Below, piece by piece: positions 54,633 to 64,000 of a stretch of DNA of 64,000 nt. The position numbers and the translations under genes are program-made. The notes beneath the pieces were generated by a model. It was not told the DNA's origin. It searched no databases and was given only the letters and a program-made list of their open reading frames with translations. The stretch spans positions 124,001-188,000 of the forward strand of contig SCKX01000001.1 in NCBI GenBank assembly GCA_004100325.1. The letters run 5' to 3'. The DNA comes from Candidatus Microsaccharimonas sossegonensis (lineage in GTDB: Bacteria; Patescibacteriota; Saccharimonadia; Saccharimonadales; Saccharimonadaceae). The first letter of the stretch is position 1. Each line of letters starts with the position of its first letter.

Positions 54633-54684
54633 GGCTCCCTGTGATATAGGAGGATCCAGCTTGTTAATTTTTCCAAAGAAAACA

Positions 54685-54729
54685 GGCTAGTTGTTCAATA
54701 CCTTAAAACAGGTATTGGTGACACTAGCC
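54685..54729. other. Nested hairpin in the 306-bp gap before the GNAT-ASCH gene end
   Basis: GGCTAGT pairs with ACTAGCC (54685-54691 and 54723-54729); inside, CAATACCT pairs with AGGTATTG (54696-54703 and 54710-54717); internal loop 4/5 nt. No T-run follows. It could be a processed 3' end, an inverted-repeat remnant or a site-specific recombination end. No gene is seen between 54479 and 54784. Confidence 0.4.
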
Positions 54730-54784
54730 CAAGTCACCCGCAGATTAACCGAATTACCGGAGGGTGCGAAACCTTACTTGTGTC

Positions 54785-56128
54785 TTACAACTTGTTGATC
54801 TCGAGCACGTAAATGCCGAGGGACTCCTTCTCCGGAGGGTAGATTCCCCGCAGAAGCGCAAGAGCATCATCCTGAGTGTTGACCTGCGGGACGATTTGCT
54901 GCCACGATTCAGTCGCCAGCATGTCCGCAAAATCGCGGTACACACGGACGGCCTTGATGCGTACGACACCGGACTTCTGACTGGTTTCGAGCTGCAATAG
55001 CTCACCAGCACTAAGTCGTTTGATGCTGTCGTAGCCGACACGGACCTCGAGGGTTTTCTTGCCGGACATGATCGCGTCGTAATACGGACGCTTGATGCGC
55101 ATCTTACGCACAGTTGCTCCTTCTTTGTTGAAATTGAGTCCCCACTGCTGCACTACACTTTCAGGCGCATACCCTCCCGGGAACACACCTTCCAGTTTCC
55201 AGCCATGACGCTGGAGTGCGGCTACTTGCCACGAGGATGGAACGATGTGGACGTAGAGTTTGTGCCCGTAGTCCACGAGCAGGCTCTGGAGGTCGGTGAC
55301 GAGCGCCTCGAAGGCATCCTCGTTCGACGCCACCAAGGGCATCAGCTTGATAGGGTCACCCTTCTTAGGGGTAGCCCCGGCTACGCCGACCACTTCTCCG
55401 CCACACTCGGCGACGAAAATGATCTTGTACTTGGTATTAACATCGGCAGAATTCCGTCGGTGGAAGCCGGCGAACAAGGCATCAACCCAGTCGTCGTCTA
55501 CTCCGATGAAATCGTCACCCATCTCCCGCAGAACGAGGGCTCGCACACCATTGGCATGCTTCTCCTCGTCGAACGGAACTACCGACACGTTTAGTGAGTC
55601 GAAACCCTGTTCGTCGTCGAGCTGCTTGTAAAGCATGTGCTCGTCGATTCCCTGCTTGTAGTGGTCCTTCGCCGTACCAGTGATGTAGAATCCTTTCCGA
55701 AGAAAGAACCCCAGCGCCATCTTGTTCGGCGACGCAACGGTGCAGTAGATCTGCCGAGCGCCAACGCTCCGGGCATATTCTTCGGCGCGCTCAAGGAGCA
55801 TGCTTCCGACACCCAGACTGCCGCGATACTCGGTGCTGACGATCAGCGGACTGATCTTCACCGTCTCCTGCTTCTTCTCCACTACATGAATGAGACCGAC
55901 CTGAAGGCCATCAATCTCGGCGATGAACATGTGCTGTCCAGCCGAGAAATGTCCGACCCGATCGATACCTCCATCCATGTGAGTGTCGAAGATCCGCCGC
56001 GCGTGAGCACGGTGATCGCCGTCATAGAACGGGCTTAACACCCGAACCATGAGGTCAGCGACCCATTCGAAATCGCCGCCTTCCGCTTCGCGGATGACAA
56101 CGTTGTTCTCAACCAATGATTTGGTCAA
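54785..56128 (-). CDS. GNAT-GNAT-ASCH three-domain protein in a GC-rich patch
   Basis: 447 aa. First GNAT domain (about 10-165) with STEYRGSLGVGSMLLERAEEYARS (acetyl-CoA loop, about 98-121) and ALGFFLRKGFYITG. Second, more diverged GNAT-like domain (about 175-335). C-terminal ASCH domain (about 345-447) with MSGKKTLEVRV and the ending SLGIYVLEINKL. ASCH domains bind RNA or act on acetylated cytidine (YqfB). TTG start with GGAGGT 5 nt before it, unlike the leaderless neighbours. Two sampled 60-base lines are 57 and 62 percent GC, so recent transfer is likely. Confidence 0.82.
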   Translation of the reverse strand: MTKSLVENNVVIREAEGGDFEWVADLMVRVLSPFYDGDHRAHARRIFDTHMDGGIDRVGHFSAGQHMFIAEIDGLQVGLIHVVEKKQETVKISPLIVSTEYRGSLGVGSMLLERAEEYARSVGARQIYCTVASPNKMALGFFLRKGFYITGTAKDHYKQGIDEHMLYKQLDDEQGFDSLNVSVVPFDEEKHANGVRALVLREMGDDFIGVDDDWVDALFAGFHRRNSADVNTKYKIIFVAECGGEVVGVAGATPKKGDPIKLMPLVASNEDAFEALVTDLQSLLVDYGHKLYVHIVPSSWQVAALQRHGWKLEGVFPGGYAPESVVQQWGLNFNKEGATVRKMRIKRPYYDAIMSGKKTLEVRVGYDSIKRLSAGELLQLETSQKSGVVRIKAVRVYRDFADMLATESWQQIVPQVNTQDDALALLRGIYPPEKESLGIYVLEINKL

Positions 56129-56216
56129 GGTGCACCTCCAATTGTTTGCTACGATTTTACGACGTAGCGTGGATAGGACACATAAATAATAACACTAAAT
56201 GAAACAAAAAGCAAAT

Positions 56217-56555
56217 CTAGAGACGATTAAATTCGATACCCACAACACCTTTTATATGCTGCTCATCAATGCTATAAAACTCGTTAATTTGGTTCTCTAG
56301 CCATTCAACGCTCTCACCCCCAAATCTTGTTGGTCCGTTATAGCGAAATAGTGCACTAAAAGTATCATACCGAAGTAAGCCTACGACAATAACGGCTACT
56401 GTCTGCTCTGGGGCTTCACGATTGGTAAAAATTATTTCGTCGCCAAGCTGTATAAGCTGGCGTTTTTCGTCATAAAGTCGTGACTCAATAGTTTTTTGAC
56501 CACTAACAATAGCTTCAAATGGTACGGTTGCAAGTTGTAGTGCATGTGTTGTCAT
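56217..56555 (-). CDS. Stand-alone ASCH domain protein
   Basis: 112 aa, one ASCH domain: LATVPFEAIVSGQKTIESRLYDEKR (about 8-32) with the GxKTxExR core, GDEIIFTNR, and a C-terminus ending GVVGIEFNRL. Close in plan to the ASCH domain at the end of the neighbouring GNAT-GNAT-ASCH protein but of local base composition. The frame opens at 56609; TATAAT (rc of 56565-56570) lies 9 nt before ATG 56555, which is preferred. Confidence 0.85.
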   Translation of the reverse strand: MTTHALQLATVPFEAIVSGQKTIESRLYDEKRQLIQLGDEIIFTNREAPEQTVAVIVVGLLRYDTFSALFRYNGPTRFGGESVEWLENQINEFYSIDEQHIKGVVGIEFNRL

Positions 56556-56635
56556 ATACCACTTATTATACCTCAAGAAAGTAGCAACCTTTGAGTATGT
56601 CTGACGCATACAAAGAAAGGCGGTTTCAACTCTGG

Positions 56636-58269: not shown

Positions 58270-58797
58270 TTATGGCAAGTTTTTTACATTAGTAAGATAC
58301 GCACATCGTAGCTCCTCTGCAAGAGAAGCTATCACTTGCTCGCTGTATGCTTCAAAGAAGAAAGTAAACTTATTTTTTAGGTTTTTTTGCATTTCGATAG
58401 GTGCAAGATCATAATAGTAGCTATTTTGAATAAGGTCTGCTGCGCGAATCGATAAGACGTCATCGCCAAGCTCAGCCGTGCGAGCAAAAGACTGCATGAT
58501 ATCTTGAGTATCTGAAACAGTGAGAGCATCGACATATAATGCAATTCGAGGTCCAAAACCCTTCTCTACATCTTCAACAGCAATATCAGTATCCTCAACA
58601 ACATCATGAAGAATTGCAGCGATTACTACATCTTGCGGGCAACCTCTCTCCCACAGCATTTCTGCAACTTGAATTGAATGAAGCAATACTGGCTTAGTGT
58701 TATGTCCAGAATCTTGCAAGGCATTCGACAAGAAGAATAAAGCTCGCTCTATCTCATGCCTATCGTATTCAGATTCTGCGATATGCATCTTCTCCAT
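58270..58797 (-). CDS. HD-domain hydrolase of the RelA/SpoT alarmone-hydrolase type
   Basis: 175 aa. LLHSIQVAEMLWERG (His, about 39-53), AAILHDVVEDTDIAVEDVEKGFG (HD and ED motifs, about 61-83) and RAADLIQN (about 119-126) are the conserved sites of SpoT/MESH1 (p)ppGpp hydrolases. No synthetase domain is attached, so this is a small alarmone hydrolase candidate; nucleoside phosphohydrolases share the fold. It starts 6 nt after the rhuM stop. In phage defence and toxSAS pairs such hydrolases act as antitoxins, but no synthetase is next to it. Confidence 0.85.
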   Translation of the reverse strand: MEKMHIAESEYDRHEIERALFFLSNALQDSGHNTKPVLLHSIQVAEMLWERGCPQDVVIAAILHDVVEDTDIAVEDVEKGFGPRIALYVDALTVSDTQDIMQSFARTAELGDDVLSIRAADLIQNSYYYDLAPIEMQKNLKNKFTFFFEAYSEQVIASLAEELRCAYLTNVKNLP

Positions 58798-58803
58798 CTT
58801 ATT

Positions 58804-59751
58804 TTACTCCTTGTCGCTACTATGATCGGTTAATTTGCTATCAATCTGCAGCTCAATTATCTCTTCGTTTCCAATCTTATCATCTAACATCACCTGCAGG
58901 TCTTTGCCATAAATATCAGCAAACCTGTCTACCTCGGTCACCCAGTCGCTCATGTTCATCGACTCATGGTTGATTGCTTTCAGTTCAGCCAGGTCGAAGA
59001 ACGCGCTAACCAAGCGGTTGAGTACCGCTAGCTCCTCTGCGCTCAGGTAGTTTTTGGCAACACTTGCCTCAGCTTTGGTGGGATGATTGCCTTTGAAAGC
59101 TGTCAGCCCCAGAAACGGCTTGTCAGAATCAACCCGCGAATGAATGACTTCGGCGGCTGTCAGTAGATTAACCGCATAGTGCAGTTTGTTTTGGATAATT
59201 TTAAAGAACTCTTGCTGCTGGGGAGAATGTGGATCGTAGTCACGACTAGTGGCAAACAGATCAAGCACTTGGCGGTATAAAACTTTCTCACTGCTACGGA
59301 TGTCGCGGATACGCTCCAGCAGTTCTATCCAGTACTTGCCGCCGCCGGCTTCTTTGAGCCGTTCGTCATCCATGGCAAATCCCTTGACAATATATTCGCG
59401 CAGTCTTTGGGTAGCCCAGATGCGAAACTTTGTAGCAACAGATGACTTGATACGATAGCCAAGCGAAATAATCATATCGAGATTATAGTGCTCTATTTCG
59501 CGCACCACTTCGCGACCACCTTCTGTTTGAACTGTTCGGAATTTCCGAACAGTTGCCGACTCATCGAGTTCACCTTCGACAAAAATATTTTTAATATGTT
59601 CGCTGACATTTGATTTGCTAGATTGATATAGCTCCACCATCTGCGCCTGCGACAACCAGACAGTCTCGCCCTGAAATGTTACGTCAATACGTGGTTTGCC
59701 GTCGTCGCCGACATAGAGGATTATCTCACCAACCGGACCATCAAGACTCAT
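58804..59751 (-). CDS. RhuM family protein
   Basis: 315 aa. Family features: GEIILYVGDDGKPRIDVTFQGETVWLSQAQMVELYQ (about 8-43), EIEHYNLDMIISLGYRI (about 85-101), FRIWATQRLREYIVKGFAMDDERLKE (about 108-133). RhuM (virulence protein of Salmonella) homologues often lie inside type I restriction loci, between hsdM and hsdS, with unknown role. The ATG overlaps the hsdM stop (ATGA at 59748-59751). Confidence 0.9.
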   Translation of the reverse strand: MSLDGPVGEIILYVGDDGKPRIDVTFQGETVWLSQAQMVELYQSSKSNVSEHIKNIFVEGELDESATVRKFRTVQTEGGREVVREIEHYNLDMIISLGYRIKSSVATKFRIWATQRLREYIVKGFAMDDERLKEAGGGKYWIELLERIRDIRSSEKVLYRQVLDLFATSRDYDPHSPQQQEFFKIIQNKLHYAVNLLTAAEVIHSRVDSDKPFLGLTAFKGNHPTKAEASVAKNYLSAEELAVLNRLVSAFFDLAELKAINHESMNMSDWVTEVDRFADIYGKDLQVMLDDKIGNEEIIELQIDSKLTDHSSDKE

Positions 59752-61328
59752 TGTTTTGCGCTTTCTAAATCTGCCACAATGGTGTCGATCTGGGTGCGCA
59801 ACTGGCTTTGTTTTGCGACGATGTCAGCAATACTGGCATTGAGCTCAGTGATGTCAGTCGCTACAGTTGAGTCTAGCTCATCAATATAGCTACTAACTGC
59901 CAGATTGTAATCATTTTCGGCGATCTCGCTGTTCGGCACTAACTTGCCGAAGTGTTCGATGTCTTCACGAGTACTGAATGCTTCAAGAATTTTGTCTTGA
60001 TTGGCTTGACTAAGCTTATTTTTGTTACCGCCACGAACAAACTCGGCACTGGCATTAATGAATAACGTTGAGTTGTCTTTCTTGCTCTTCTTGAGAACCA
60101 CAATACATGTTGAGATAGTTGTACCAAAGAATAGATCAGGTGGTAACTGAATGACTGCATCTACAAAGTTGTTATCAACCAGATATTTACGGATCTTTGC
60201 TTCAGCACCGCCTCGGTACAACACTCCAGGGAATTCAACAATCGCAGCCGTACCACTAGTCGAAAGCCAGTTAAGAATATGAAGCGTGAACGCTAGGTCG
60301 GCTTTACTTTTTGGTGCTAGAACTCCTGCTGGAGAAAAACGAGGATCATTGATTAACAGTGGGTTTGCATCCCCCTCCCAGTTAATAGAGTAAGGTGGAT
60401 TCGAGACGATGGCATCGAAAGGTTCGTCATCCCAGTGGGCTGGATCGGTCAGTGTATCTCCATGAGCTATGCTGAACTTTTCATAATTAATGTCGTGTAG
60501 ATACATGTTGATACGGCAAAGGTTGTAGGTGGTGAGGTTGATCTCTTGTCCATAAAATCCTTGTCGAACATTCTCCTTACCCAATACCTTTGCGAACTTT
60601 AGTAGGAGTGAACCTGAGCCGCAGGCTGGGTCATATACCTTGTTCACTTCTTTCTTGCCAACCACAGTGATACGAGCTAACAACTCACTGACTTCCTGAG
60701 GCGTGAAGAACTCACCACCAGACTTACCCGCCGATGACGCGTACATGGTCATGAGGTATTCATAAGCATCACCGAATGCATCGATTGTGTTGTCTTCGTA
60801 CCTACCGACCTCAAGGCTGCCGATAGCATCAAGTAGCTTAACGAGCCGCTCGTTGCGCTTGGCAACTGTCTGGCCGAGCTTGCTGCTATTTACGTCGAGA
60901 TCATCAAAAAGACCTTTGATATCGTCTTCGCTATCAGCACCTTTGGCAGAGTTCTCGATATTACGGAAGATACCCGAAAGAATTTCGTTTAGGTTATCTT
61001 CTTCTTTCGCTCGCTTGCGGACGTTTTCAAACAGCTCACTTGGCAATATGTAGAAGCCTTTTTCAGCTACTGTGTCTTTGCGACCAAACTCTGCGGCATC
61101 ATCGCTTAGGCTGGCATAGTCAAAATCTGCAGCACCAGTCCTTCGCTCTTCAGCGTTGATATAGTTGGAAAGATTTTCGGATATAAAACGATAAAACAGT
61201 ATGCCTAACACATACTGTTTGAAGTCCCATCCATCTACTGATCCCCTTAAGTCGTTCGCAATCTTCCAAATCGTGCTGTGTAGTCGGGCCCGTTCTTGCT
61301 CTTTTTTAGTGTCTGTTGTGGTTGTCAT
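59748..61328 (-). CDS. hsdM: Type I restriction-modification methyltransferase subunit HsdM
   Basis: 526 aa. N-terminal HsdM_N helices (KIANDLRGSVDGWDFKQYVLGILFYRF), a SAM motif DPACGSGSLL (about 232-241), catalytic NPPYS (about 307-311) of N6-adenine methylases, and a C-terminal coiled coil. TATAAT (rc of 61339-61344) is 10 nt before ATG 61328; a TTG 12 nt upstream is in frame. Neither hsdS nor hsdR is found downstream: rhuM and an HD gene follow, then a terminator. Without HsdS the enzyme has no target recognition, so a distant S subunit is needed or this is an orphan. Confidence 0.95.
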   Translation of the reverse strand: MTTTTDTKKEQERARLHSTIWKIANDLRGSVDGWDFKQYVLGILFYRFISENLSNYINAEERRTGAADFDYASLSDDAAEFGRKDTVAEKGFYILPSELFENVRKRAKEEDNLNEILSGIFRNIENSAKGADSEDDIKGLFDDLDVNSSKLGQTVAKRNERLVKLLDAIGSLEVGRYEDNTIDAFGDAYEYLMTMYASSAGKSGGEFFTPQEVSELLARITVVGKKEVNKVYDPACGSGSLLLKFAKVLGKENVRQGFYGQEINLTTYNLCRINMYLHDINYEKFSIAHGDTLTDPAHWDDEPFDAIVSNPPYSINWEGDANPLLINDPRFSPAGVLAPKSKADLAFTLHILNWLSTSGTAAIVEFPGVLYRGGAEAKIRKYLVDNNFVDAVIQLPPDLFFGTTISTCIVVLKKSKKDNSTLFINASAEFVRGGNKNKLSQANQDKILEAFSTREDIEHFGKLVPNSEIAENDYNLAVSSYIDELDSTVATDITELNASIADIVAKQSQLRTQIDTIVADLESAKQ

Positions 61329-61377
61329 ATTACACAACATTATACCTCAAAAACAGATGTAATAACACTGTTAGCAG

Positions 61378-61383: not shown

Positions 61384-61389
61384 ATGGCT

Positions 61390-62124
61390 ATGGCAAAAAC
61401 TAAGTCAGATAATTATTGGGAACCACATGCAAGAATCCTTGAATCTATGTCCCGTTTTCAGGCTGCTGTATCTGATGTTCGTAAGCGGCTAGATATTCCT
61501 GAAACAGGCATTCCTTATGATAAACGGGCTGAGTGGTTTGCCGATTTCTACCGCAACGCCGATGAAAATACCGCAAAGCGATATGGAGGTGCATATGGAT
61601 ATGAGTTGCTGCCCCCAAACAAGGAATTGCTGGACGAGCTAGATAAACTAAGGCTTGAGTTCAACCTTGACCCACGTTGGCTTCATCCGCTGTTCAACTA
61701 TATATTTTCCGCCGATAAATCATTAGAACCGCCATCACAGAAGAGTGCGTGGCCGTCGCCAAGAATGAATGATGTGCGTTTACCGAAAGAGCAACAGCGA
61801 GTCACGAGCTTGAGTATTCGTATTGAGAAAGATACCACTATCCATGATATCGAGGACATTTGGGATGATATTCGGAAGTATCAAGCGTATATGGATGCAG
61901 ACATTCCATCTCGGCGTGATCCAATTCAAGCAGAAACGGTTGAGCGATACCGCAAAATAGTTAAGTTACGCGCGGATGGATTGAAGTACCAAGAGATAGC
62001 AGAAAAGTATCCTAATAAATTTAACTCGGCAGAAGATGTCAGGAGTTTTAAGAATAAGCAGGAAGCTCGGTTCAAAAAACGTACCTCGTTACGTCACTTA
62101 CCGAGCCTATGGTGGCATAAATAG
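61390..62124 (+). CDS. Unknown protein at the prophage edge (244 aa)
   Basis: Not recognised. Soluble. The C-terminal part ETVERYRKIVKLRADGLKYQEIAEKYPNKF (about 180-210) looks like a helix-turn-helix with a basic end (KNKQEARFKKR), so DNA binding is plausible. The middle part (EKDTTIHDIEDIWDDIRKYQ) recalls a two-helix motif preceding such HTHs. Divergent from hsdM with 61 bp between starts. A control gene or the first structural gene of the phage block. Confidence 0.6.
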   Translation: MAKTKSDNYWEPHARILESMSRFQAAVSDVRKRLDIPETGIPYDKRAEWFADFYRNADENTAKRYGGAYGYELLPPNKELLDELDKLRLEFNLDPRWLHPLFNYIFSADKSLEPPSQKSAWPSPRMNDVRLPKEQQRVTSLSIRIEKDTTIHDIEDIWDDIRKYQAYMDADIPSRRDPIQAETVERYRKIVKLRADGLKYQEIAEKYPNKFNSAEDVRSFKNKQEARFKKRTSLRHLPSLWWHK

Positions 62125-62161
62125 CTTGGGGTCATGATATTTCCAGAATAAGGAGATAATC

Positions 62162-63484
62162 ATGACAAATAACAACTTAGAGGTTACATATCAAAAAGTA
62201 AAAGAATTAAACCCTGCGCCATACAATCCACGCAAGTGGAGCGAGGAAGCAATTGCCCAACTTACTAATAGCATAAAAAGCTTCGGTATAGTTGACCCGA
62301 TTTTAGTGAACAGCTCAGCAAGTCGCAAGAACGTAGTTATAGGTGGGCACTTCAGGCTCAAGGTTGCGAAAGATCTTGGCATTAAAGAAGTACCCGTTGT
62401 ATATGTAGATATCCCCGATATTGAACGAGAAAAAGAACTAAACGTTCGACTAAATAAGAATCTTGGAGACTGGGATTATGAACTACTGGCCGAGTTTGAT
62501 GAAACACTACTAAGCACGATTGGTTTCGATAGTGAGGAGATCGATGCAATTTTTGACCAAGTGGTTGATGAACCTGAAACGTTCGATCTTGAAAAGGAGC
62601 TACGGAAGCTAGATATCAATACAATCACCGTACAAAAAGGCGATGTCTATCTGCTTGGCGATTCACGATTGATGTGCGGTGACTCAACTGTCGAAGCAGA
62701 CTTTGACAAGCTAATGAACGGCGAACAAGCCGATATGTGCATGACAGATCCGCCGTACATACTTGATTACCTGCATGCAAAGCGTGGCGGCAAACCCGTA
62801 ACTGGTTTTGGAGCGAAGCGTAATCGTCGCTACCTTGAAACCGATGTCCTGCCCGATAACTTTACCGAACTGTGGATGGCGAATGTCGCCAAGTATGCCA
62901 AGCCAGACTACTCCATTATTGTGTATGAAAATTGGAAAAATCTGCGTGTGATTTGGGCAGAGATGGAAAAATACTGGAAAGTAAAAAATATGATTGTGTG
63001 GCACTTACCCAATCGACATCAAGGCTTCGCTGCTAAATACAAGTTCTTTAGTAAACATGATATTGCTATGGTCGGTGCGTCTGGTGACGTTGAGTATAAC
63101 CACGATGAGGAACCTGATGGTCTCCAGGAAGAATATGAGACTGCACTGTATGCAATTGGCGGTAAACCCCAGTGGGAGGGTTACGAAGGCGGTAAGAAAT
63201 ATCAACCAACCGATTTCATTAGTTATATGGCTAGTGACGAAAAGCACTCAGGGCAAGGTGTTATCTTTGGTACAAAACCACTAGAAATACTCATTCCGTA
63301 TATCAAAGTTTTAACAAAGCGAGGTGACCTCGTAGTTGAACCGTTTTCCGGCAGCGGCTCGACACTCATCGCTAGCACGAAGCTAAATCGGCGATGCAAC
63401 ATCATGGAAAAAAGTCCCACCTACGCTGAAGTAGCACTCAAGCGTTGGGAGAAACTGACCGGGGAAAAGCGAGTGAAGCTATGA
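62162..63484 (+). CDS. ParB-domain DNA methyltransferase, phage type
   Basis: 440 aa. N-terminal ParB/sulfiredoxin-type domain (about 10-95) with PYNPRKWSEEAIAQLTNSIK and IGGHFRLKVAKDLGI, followed by an amino-methyltransferase with catalytic DPPY (MTDPPYILDYL, about 197-207) and SAM motif EPFSGSGSTLIA (about 398-409), thus beta-class order. Such fusions are common in phages and mobile elements. SD AAGGAG before ATG. Ends in an ATGA overlap with the small terminase gene. Confidence 0.92.
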   Translation: MTNNNLEVTYQKVKELNPAPYNPRKWSEEAIAQLTNSIKSFGIVDPILVNSSASRKNVVIGGHFRLKVAKDLGIKEVPVVYVDIPDIEREKELNVRLNKNLGDWDYELLAEFDETLLSTIGFDSEEIDAIFDQVVDEPETFDLEKELRKLDINTITVQKGDVYLLGDSRLMCGDSTVEADFDKLMNGEQADMCMTDPPYILDYLHAKRGGKPVTGFGAKRNRRYLETDVLPDNFTELWMANVAKYAKPDYSIIVYENWKNLRVIWAEMEKYWKVKNMIVWHLPNRHQGFAAKYKFFSKHDIAMVGASGDVEYNHDEEPDGLQEEYETALYAIGGKPQWEGYEGGKKYQPTDFISYMASDEKHSGQGVIFGTKPLEILIPYIKVLTKRGDLVVEPFSGSGSTLIASTKLNRRCNIMEKSPTYAEVALKRWEKLTGEKRVKL

Positions 63485-63891
63485 GCCGAAATCTGGCGGC
63501 AGATAAAAAGAAATTGTTAGAAAAGCTTCGAAAGACACCGATTGTTGAAGTTGCTTGTAAGCAGTCGGGCGTACCTAGAAGTACGTATTACCGTTGGCGT
63601 AAGGATGATGAGGATTTTGCTAGCGAGTGTGATGAGGCCATTGAGAATAGCGCAGGGTTGATAAATGACATGGCCGAGAGTCAGTTAATCTCTGCCATAA
63701 AAGACAAAAACATGTCGGCCATATTCTTTTGGCTAAAGCACCATCACAAGTCGTATAAAACTCGCATCGAGGTAAACGCCAAGCTACAAACCATACAACA
63801 GGAATTAACGCCTGAGCAAACCGAAGTTGTATCACGTGCGCTTCAACTTGCAGGATTAACAACCGAGGATGAAACTGATGAAACAAGCTAA
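63481..63891 (+). CDS. Terminase small-subunit-like protein
   Basis: 136 aa. N-terminal HTH (LRKTPIVEVACKQSGVPRSTYYRWRKDDEDF, about 14-44), then DEAIENSAGLINDMAESQLI and AIFFWLKHHHKSYKTR, the phBC6A51-type small terminase layout. It would recognise pac or cos DNA. The frame is open upstream to 63445, but ATG 63481 overlaps the methyltransferase stop. The next gene begins inside its end. Confidence 0.8.
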   Translation: MSRNLAADKKKLLEKLRKTPIVEVACKQSGVPRSTYYRWRKDDEDFASECDEAIENSAGLINDMAESQLISAIKDKNMSAIFFWLKHHHKSYKTRIEVNAKLQTIQQELTPEQTEVVSRALQLAGLTTEDETDETS

Positions 63892-64000
63892 CCTACAGGC
63901 TACACTCTTTAACGACCATAAAGTTCGTGCGGAGGTTACATCACAAAGCCACCAGTGGTTCTTTTCTACCTACTTCTCGAACTACCTAACCCATGCCACT
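63878..64000 (+). CDS. Probable large terminase subunit, 5' end (cut by window edge)
   Basis: ATG 63878 overlaps the small-terminase gene by 14 nt and the frame is open to the edge (41 codons). The product starts MKQANLQATLFNDHKVRAEV and reaches YFSNYLTHAT. Position directly after a small terminase is the main evidence; the ATPase motifs would lie beyond the window. Confidence 0.6.
   Translation, partial: MKQANLQATLFNDHKVRAEVTSQSHQWFFSTYFSNYLTHAT

Follow-up and report, generated by a model that had tools for sequence, protein, structure and literature searches.

The locus considered here raises the question of what a protein that joins two GNAT acetyltransferase folds to an ASCH domain acts on, and why a separate ASCH gene lies beside it. 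The host is a Saccharibacteria-type patescibacterium with a genome of 0.81 Mb (97% complete), and the window, that is, the whole 64,000-nucleotide stretch of DNA analysed, carries both genes on its minus strand, with the fusion gene 88 bp downstream of the lone ASCH gene. The answer favoured here, with somewhat less than even confidence, is that the two genes form a mobile resistance module that would acetylate cytosine-nucleoside antibiotics, with ASCH serving as a ligand or RNA binder. No paper describing such a pair was found in a search mostly of literature available without subscription. The features of the locus are as follows:

54785-56128, minus strand: GNAT-GNAT-ASCH fusion gene, 447 aa with a TTG start (open reading frame, Pfam, structure model and family)
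55619-56128, minus strand: GNAT domain 1, residues 1-170, with an RGSLGVGS loop and Tyr157
55124-55591, minus strand: GNAT domain 2, residues 180-335, lacking the acetyl-CoA loop but holding ten family-invariant residues
54791-55108, minus strand: C-terminal ASCH domain of the fusion, residues 341-446, with a GKKTLEVR motif
56217-56555, minus strand: stand-alone ASCH gene, 112 aa, the conserved partner of the fusion (PF04266, 7e-9)
56565-56570, minus strand: TATAAT -10 box, 9 nt ahead of the lone ASCH start codon (ATG at 56555; sequence; comparison with loci L027, L017 and L030)
56129-56179, minus strand: 5' leader of the fusion gene with conserved GTCCTATCC, a GCTACG/CGTAGC hairpin and the Shine-Dalgarno sequence GGAGG (sequence comparison)
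54675-54739, minus strand: 3' structured element, a GTGAC..GTCAC hairpin, its GGGCTAG loop paired to a CTAGCC that precedes a T-run (comparison)

Domains of the fusion and of its partner

A sequence-only reading of this DNA had described a fusion gene with a TTG start, a strong Shine-Dalgarno sequence and a second ASCH gene close by, and this organisation is confirmed, the GGAGG (56135-56139) lying 6 nt before the start. The fusion is not a low-similarity artefact: full-length relatives occur in more than 30 genomes at 40-79% identity, the nearest named ones being Saccharibacteria. Pfam detects a GNAT domain at residues 63-147 (PF00583, 4e-14, 53 bits against a cut-off of 20.7) and an ASCH domain, not an EVE domain, at residues 344-445 (PF04266, 9e-9); Pfam matches nothing in the middle region, and no NCBIfam model attains its cut-off on the protein. 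The second GNAT fold emerges from the AlphaFold2 model (pLDDT 90.9, pTM 0.83), in which the middle region follows the GNAT order of strands and helices. Foldseek aligns this model with tandem-GNAT structures, namely VipF and the tandem GNAT of the clavulanate pathway, and SpeG/PaiA-like GNAT folds are also among the structure matches.

The earlier description of two acetyltransferase domains thus stands for the fold, but the acetyl-CoA loop is confined to the first domain. Among 37 aligned family members, a set that takes in the Streptomyces and Saccharopolyspora proteins discussed below, the R/QxxGxG/A loop is present in domain 1 of 28 and replaced by RGKGVS-like variants in most of the others; domain 2 has it in none of the 37. 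Domain 1 presumably binds acetyl-CoA and is catalytic. Of the 25 residues invariant throughout the alignment, ten fall in domain 2, and their retention in a domain without the loop suggests that it is likely the substrate-binding partner of domain 1.

The ASCH domain is likewise genuine, as its K/E/R residues are invariant in the family, and the stand-alone protein gives a structure model with a pLDDT of 95. The reference for ASCH chemistry is YqfB, an amidohydrolase of N4-acetylcytidine (ac4C) in which Lys21, Thr24 and Arg26 are required and Glu74 is important (PMC6972931). The cassette domains resemble YqfB in fold (TM 0.73 to the ac4C-bound structure) and retain Lys21 and Arg26 in 67 of 67 cases, but the nucleophile position Thr24 is occupied by Glu in all 67 (35/35 in fusions, 32/32 in stand-alone proteins). 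The Glu74 position, where the alignment is less certain, holds Asp, Gly or Gln in the fusions and mostly Gly in the stand-alone domains. With Thr24 replaced and Glu74 lost, the domains give no support to a YqfB-type ac4C eraser; they may bind RNA or a cytosine-like ligand. The nearest solved structures for both ASCH domains are the Pyrococcus proteins PH0355, PF0455 and PF0469 (2e-31 and 2e-19; TM 0.86), which, unlike the cassette proteins, are single-domain and of unknown function, and for which we know of no GNAT system. To our knowledge, the function of stand-alone ASCH domains is mostly unknown, and the partner gene offers a direct route to what such domains bind, whether the cassette serves resistance or acts on RNA.

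The lone ASCH reading frame has a possible alternative start at 56609. The start at 56555 is favoured by the TATAAT box 9 nt before its ATG, as in other members, and this short distance means that the mRNA may be near-leaderless.

Pairing and mobility of the two genes

The fusion and the lone ASCH gene travel and evolve as a pair. A second ASCH gene adjoins the fusion in 29 of the 32 loci that encode the fusion with both sides visible; the exceptions are L044, L059 and L062, and the truncated loci L052 and L031 fall outside the 32. The partner lies upstream in the same direction, downstream in convergent orientation or downstream in the same direction. Within the main group, protein distances of the fusion and the lone ASCH correlate at r = 0.907 (0 of 2000 permutations). 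For Lokiarchaeota, Aenigmarchaeota and one deltaproteobacterial MAG, the tree groups the partner with the ASCH type found in the fusion itself, which, with the caution due to long branches, suggests that the partner was recruited more than once. In genome G186 the pair is doubled, with an extra lone ASCH gene. At locus L021 (8324-13252), a row made up of two fusions, a small ASCH gene and a lone ASCH gene of fusion type adjoins a gene for an S66 LD-carboxypeptidase. The S66 family includes the microcin C immunity protein MccF.

Base composition had been taken as a sign that the fusion is a newcomer beside an existing ASCH gene. In the window the fusion has a GC content of 56%, against 45% in the flanks and 41% in the lone ASCH gene. 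The contrast, however, recurs from pair to pair: the fusion exceeds the small ASCH gene in 30 of 30 loci measured and its flanks in 28 of 30, in 26 of 30 the small ASCH gene lies below its flanks, and both genes follow the GC of the host (r = 0.79 for the fusion, r = 0.70 for the small ASCH). Composition therefore gives no sign that the fusion is a newcomer; the proposed mobility holds, but it belongs to two co-evolving genes.

That the two-gene cassette is mobile follows from its patchy spread, near-identical copies across candidate phyla, tRNA 3' ends and a direct repeat. Carriers make up 7 of 380 Patescibacteria genomes, and full or nearly full copies occur in 8 of 198 genomes of the family. 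The fusion ranges over candidate phyla and a few archaeal and bacterial MAGs, and remnants in G071, G156 and G197 indicate repeated degradation; in G071 (L026, 5802-6049) fusion residues ~136-166 are joined to ~404-446, the middle having gone. In the tree, near-identical copies are shared between Magasanikbacteria and Moranbacteria and between Kaiserbacteria and Parcubacteria, and a Levybacteria copy clusters with those of Saccharibacteria. A tRNA gene lies within 500 bp of the cassette in 12 of 34 loci, against 1.5 expected (P 5e-8), and in all twelve its 3' end points to the cassette (orientation P 0.0005); the window's own cassette has no such facing tRNA end. At L027 the end of tRNA-Trp is repeated (20/21 nt) 350 bp past the fusion gene, delimiting a 2.2-kb unit without an integrase; far-side repeats in the other loci are at or barely over shuffled maxima. 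Beyond the pair itself, most loci have no recurrent neighbour genes. Viral contigs yielded no relative, and among phages and plasmids the matches were confined to ASCH or GNAT parts, the exception being plasmid p1 of Rhodococcus.

Two loci show other settings. At L044 (3652-6270), in a high-GC proteobacterial MAG, the fusion gene sits within mazG along with a foreign in-frame mazG 3' half, the old 3' half being left behind and similar short sequences standing at both junctions; this may reflect either a small site-specific element or chimeric assembly. At L062 the fusion is near a tyrosine-recombinase-like gene, named by eye from its sequence, beside tRNA-Asp.

Relatives in antibiotic clusters and the proposed resistance role

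A high-GC phylum had been expected as the home of the fusion. It is instead mainly patescibacterial, and high-GC actinobacterial relatives are rare: the GNAT-GNAT core occurs in 1 of 249 Streptomycetaceae genomes and in 1 of 201 genomes in the order of Actinomadura, with no further copies in either. Such scarcity in Streptomycetaceae is expected of a cluster-bound gene. Identity is 43-44% in Streptomyces uw30 and Saccharopolyspora, and 27-32% in Rhodococcus. On plasmid p1 of Rhodococcus sp. 2G the GNAT-GNAT core is fused to a MazG-like domain, and in Streptomyces uw30 and Saccharopolyspora HNM0986 a separate MazG-like gene comes after it. Common to these three neighbourhoods are a CMP-hydrolase-like gene (Nuc_deoxyrib_tr), a glycosyltransferase-like gene and a DegT aminotransferase; together, MazG and the CMP hydrolase would yield cytosine from CTP.

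The Streptomyces uw30 cluster holds BlsE, a cytosylglucuronate decarboxylase (TIGR04466, 9e-195), and is therefore of blasticidin/gougerotin type. Antibiotics of the blasticidin, gougerotin and amicetin kind block the peptidyl-transferase centre of the ribosome. The cytosylglucuronic acid core is common to blasticidin S, mildiomycin, gougerotin and arginomycin (PMC5572114). The Rhodococcus and Saccharopolyspora clusters carry ABC-F genes resembling those of ribosomal protection, along with amicetin-type deoxysugar genes, among them an NDP-hexose 2,3-dehydratase and RfbH in Rhodococcus, and this gene content, read with known pathway chemistry, suggests amicetin-like products. Of the proposed writer/eraser or sensor system for acetylated nucleosides or small molecules, the link to nucleosides and small molecules is thus borne out by the actinobacterial relatives, but the ac4C writer and eraser are not, given the altered ASCH residues and a GNAT without a TmcA match.

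Actinomadura encodes a full GNAT-GNAT-ASCH protein beside a RuBisCO-like gene, with no nucleoside-antibiotic cluster visible around it. At this locus (L059, 4652-8914) the fusion lies 21 bp before the co-directional RuBisCO-like gene, which is followed by a convergent Ser/Thr kinase gene that matches the PADLOC models PD-T4-6/mad6.

A resistance enzyme is favoured by the core that these proteins have in common, by its place in antibiotic clusters and by a spread that is both mobile and patchy, and the 25 invariant residues, which extend to the Streptomyces and Saccharopolyspora cluster proteins, suggest that the substrate class is probably shared as well. From gene context and conserved residues we infer antibiotic acetylation, together with its substrate, its chemistry and the role of the ASCH domains. 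GNAT domain 1 would use acetyl-CoA to N-acetylate an antibiotic of the blasticidin, gougerotin or amicetin kind, with domain 2 contributing to the substrate site. The ligand of the ASCH domains would be the cytosine part, the product once acetylated, or structured RNA that the cassette itself encodes, and this binding would hold the substrate and set expression. Resistance genes, acetyltransferases among them, are reportedly common in this radiation (PMC8651080). Profile matches among solved GNATs include streptothricin and nourseothricin acetyltransferases, as well as RimI and SpeG. The fusion thus shares the GNAT fold with antibiotic-inactivating enzymes (profile match to the putative streptothricin acetyltransferase 3pp9, 2e-7) and the tandem arrangement with VipF and the clavulanate-pathway protein; it differs from all of these in its appended ASCH or MazG domain, in a second GNAT without the acetyl-CoA loop and in low identity.

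Several points weigh against the resistance role. The cluster-bound Streptomyces and Saccharopolyspora relatives lack an ASCH domain, whose presence in Patescibacteria may therefore point to another substrate; nor do they have a partner ASCH. The GNAT-GNAT protein of the clusters could also be biosynthetic, acylating an intermediate, rather than protective, and no product is known for the actinobacterial clusters. The Actinomadura copy, for its part, stands outside any visible cluster of this kind. Moreover, it is not obvious why resistance would call for a pair of ASCH domains and for covarying RNAs on both sides of the gene. If antibiotic resistance is nonetheless its role, the cassette would arm a mostly uncultured radiation, by way of a mobile element, against ribosome-targeting cytosine-nucleoside antibiotics, and it would point to the self-protection genes of producers.

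RNA elements and competing explanations

Both ends of the fusion gene carry structured RNA, a second finding open to test. In the window's clade, 96.5% of cells of the 3' element are paired, and both partners have changed in 10 of its 19 pairs, a level attained in 0 of 500 shuffles. Its members are the Saccharibacteria-type cassettes of the window (54675-54739), L017, L027-L031 and L037, and the architecture was found elsewhere in the loci once only, as an unrelated match. The element is predicted to be a pseudoknot or terminator, and may be a decorated terminator. Covariation of the 5' leader was seen at the same place in another clade. There, both partners have changed in 10 of the 20 pairs of a two-stem leader, a level that none of 500 shuffles attains and that slid controls fall far short of; the alignment was fitted to the model and takes in one weak extra match. 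This clade-specific leader stands upstream of the fusion in L045-L058 and L064, behind TTGACTAA, which overlaps the end of the small ASCH gene. The window's clade has a smaller hairpin after the conserved GTCCTATCC; as the leader model matches only its own clade at E < 0.01, homology between the leaders of the two clades is unsupported. Concealment of the Shine-Dalgarno sequence by the leader was considered and dropped, since folding draws pairing there but accessibility is no lower than in shuffles. The leaders of L051 and L052 contain, by eye, an upstream reading frame, MVVPLQQINERSSLK, absent from the window's clade. Rfam has no match on the window stretch, and on six loci it reports only tRNAs and one LOOT RNA.

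These structures bear on an unlikely but coherent alternative, an RNA-directed acetyltransferase. Here the ASCH domain, as a PUA-like RNA binder, would bring the GNAT to rRNA, tRNA or aminoacyl-tRNA, the lone ASCH would read or guard the mark, and in the antibiotic clusters the core would shield the ribosome by modifying the drug target. ASCH and PUA-like domains mostly bind RNA or modified bases (PMC7641849, PMC5615036), and the retained Lys21 and Arg26 in 67 of 67 domains and the covarying RNAs within the cassette fit this. It accords poorly, however, with the Streptomyces and Saccharopolyspora cores, which have no RNA-binding domain, and with the GNAT itself, whose top matches are small-molecule and N-terminal acetyltransferases and for which a Pfam scan to E 0.1 gives no match to the TmcA type (GNAT with a helicase domain) that makes ac4C. 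If it is correct, the cassette would encode an RNA-acetylating or RNA-sensing enzyme of a new type.

Equally improbable is a toxin-antitoxin or anti-phage module akin to the operons that pair a (PIN)-GNAT-EVE gene with a stand-alone ASCH gene, described by Bell 2020 building on Iyer 2013 and, according to that paper, uncharacterised by experiment (PMC7641849). The GNAT would then be a toxin acting on charged tRNA, with the lone ASCH as antitoxin or regulator. The grammar is the same, a GNAT with a C-terminal domain of the PUA superfamily and a separate ASCH gene next to it, the spread is similarly mobile, patchy and defence-like, and RhuM/HsdM-type genes lie about 2-5 kb away in the window. 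The cassette differs from those operons in having two GNATs, ASCH in place of EVE, no PIN or AAA_17 domain, a centre in Patescibacteria, relatives in nucleoside-antibiotic clusters and covarying RNA on either side of the fusion gene. PADLOC gives no model with a useful score, and RhuM and HsdM recur beside only three and two loci, respectively. The variable placement of the partner ASCH and its absence from three loci would be odd for an antitoxin, and the cluster-bound relatives have no such partner.

Less probable still is a new class of RNA-regulated mobile acetylation system. The ASCH pair would recognise the cassette's own RNAs (5' leader and 3' pseudoknot) as a mimic of the target, and the GNAT-GNAT would acetylate either a cytidine-like target in rRNA or tRNA or nucleoside antibiotics; patescibacteria would then be protected at the peptidyl-transferase centre by a family shared with antibiotic-producing actinobacteria. 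Least likely is a housekeeping role in nucleotide or metabolite turnover, such as acetylating a modified nucleoside or a polyamine outside any conflict, as the fused or adjoining MazG-like nucleotide pyrophosphohydrolases and the SpeG/PaiA-like fold matches would suit it, but not a cassette that is rare, patchy, degraded and horizontally moved.

The surroundings of the cassette contain two further gene groups. At 58270-61340 of the window, HD-domain, RhuM-type and HsdM genes stand in a row, with no HsdS or HsdR gene beside them in the stretch examined. At 61384-64000 a phage-like run begins with an HTH gene, a ParB-N/N6-N4 methyltransferase gene and a small terminase-like gene; L025 has a large terminase-like gene in this run, whose genes, except for the methyltransferase, were named by eye.
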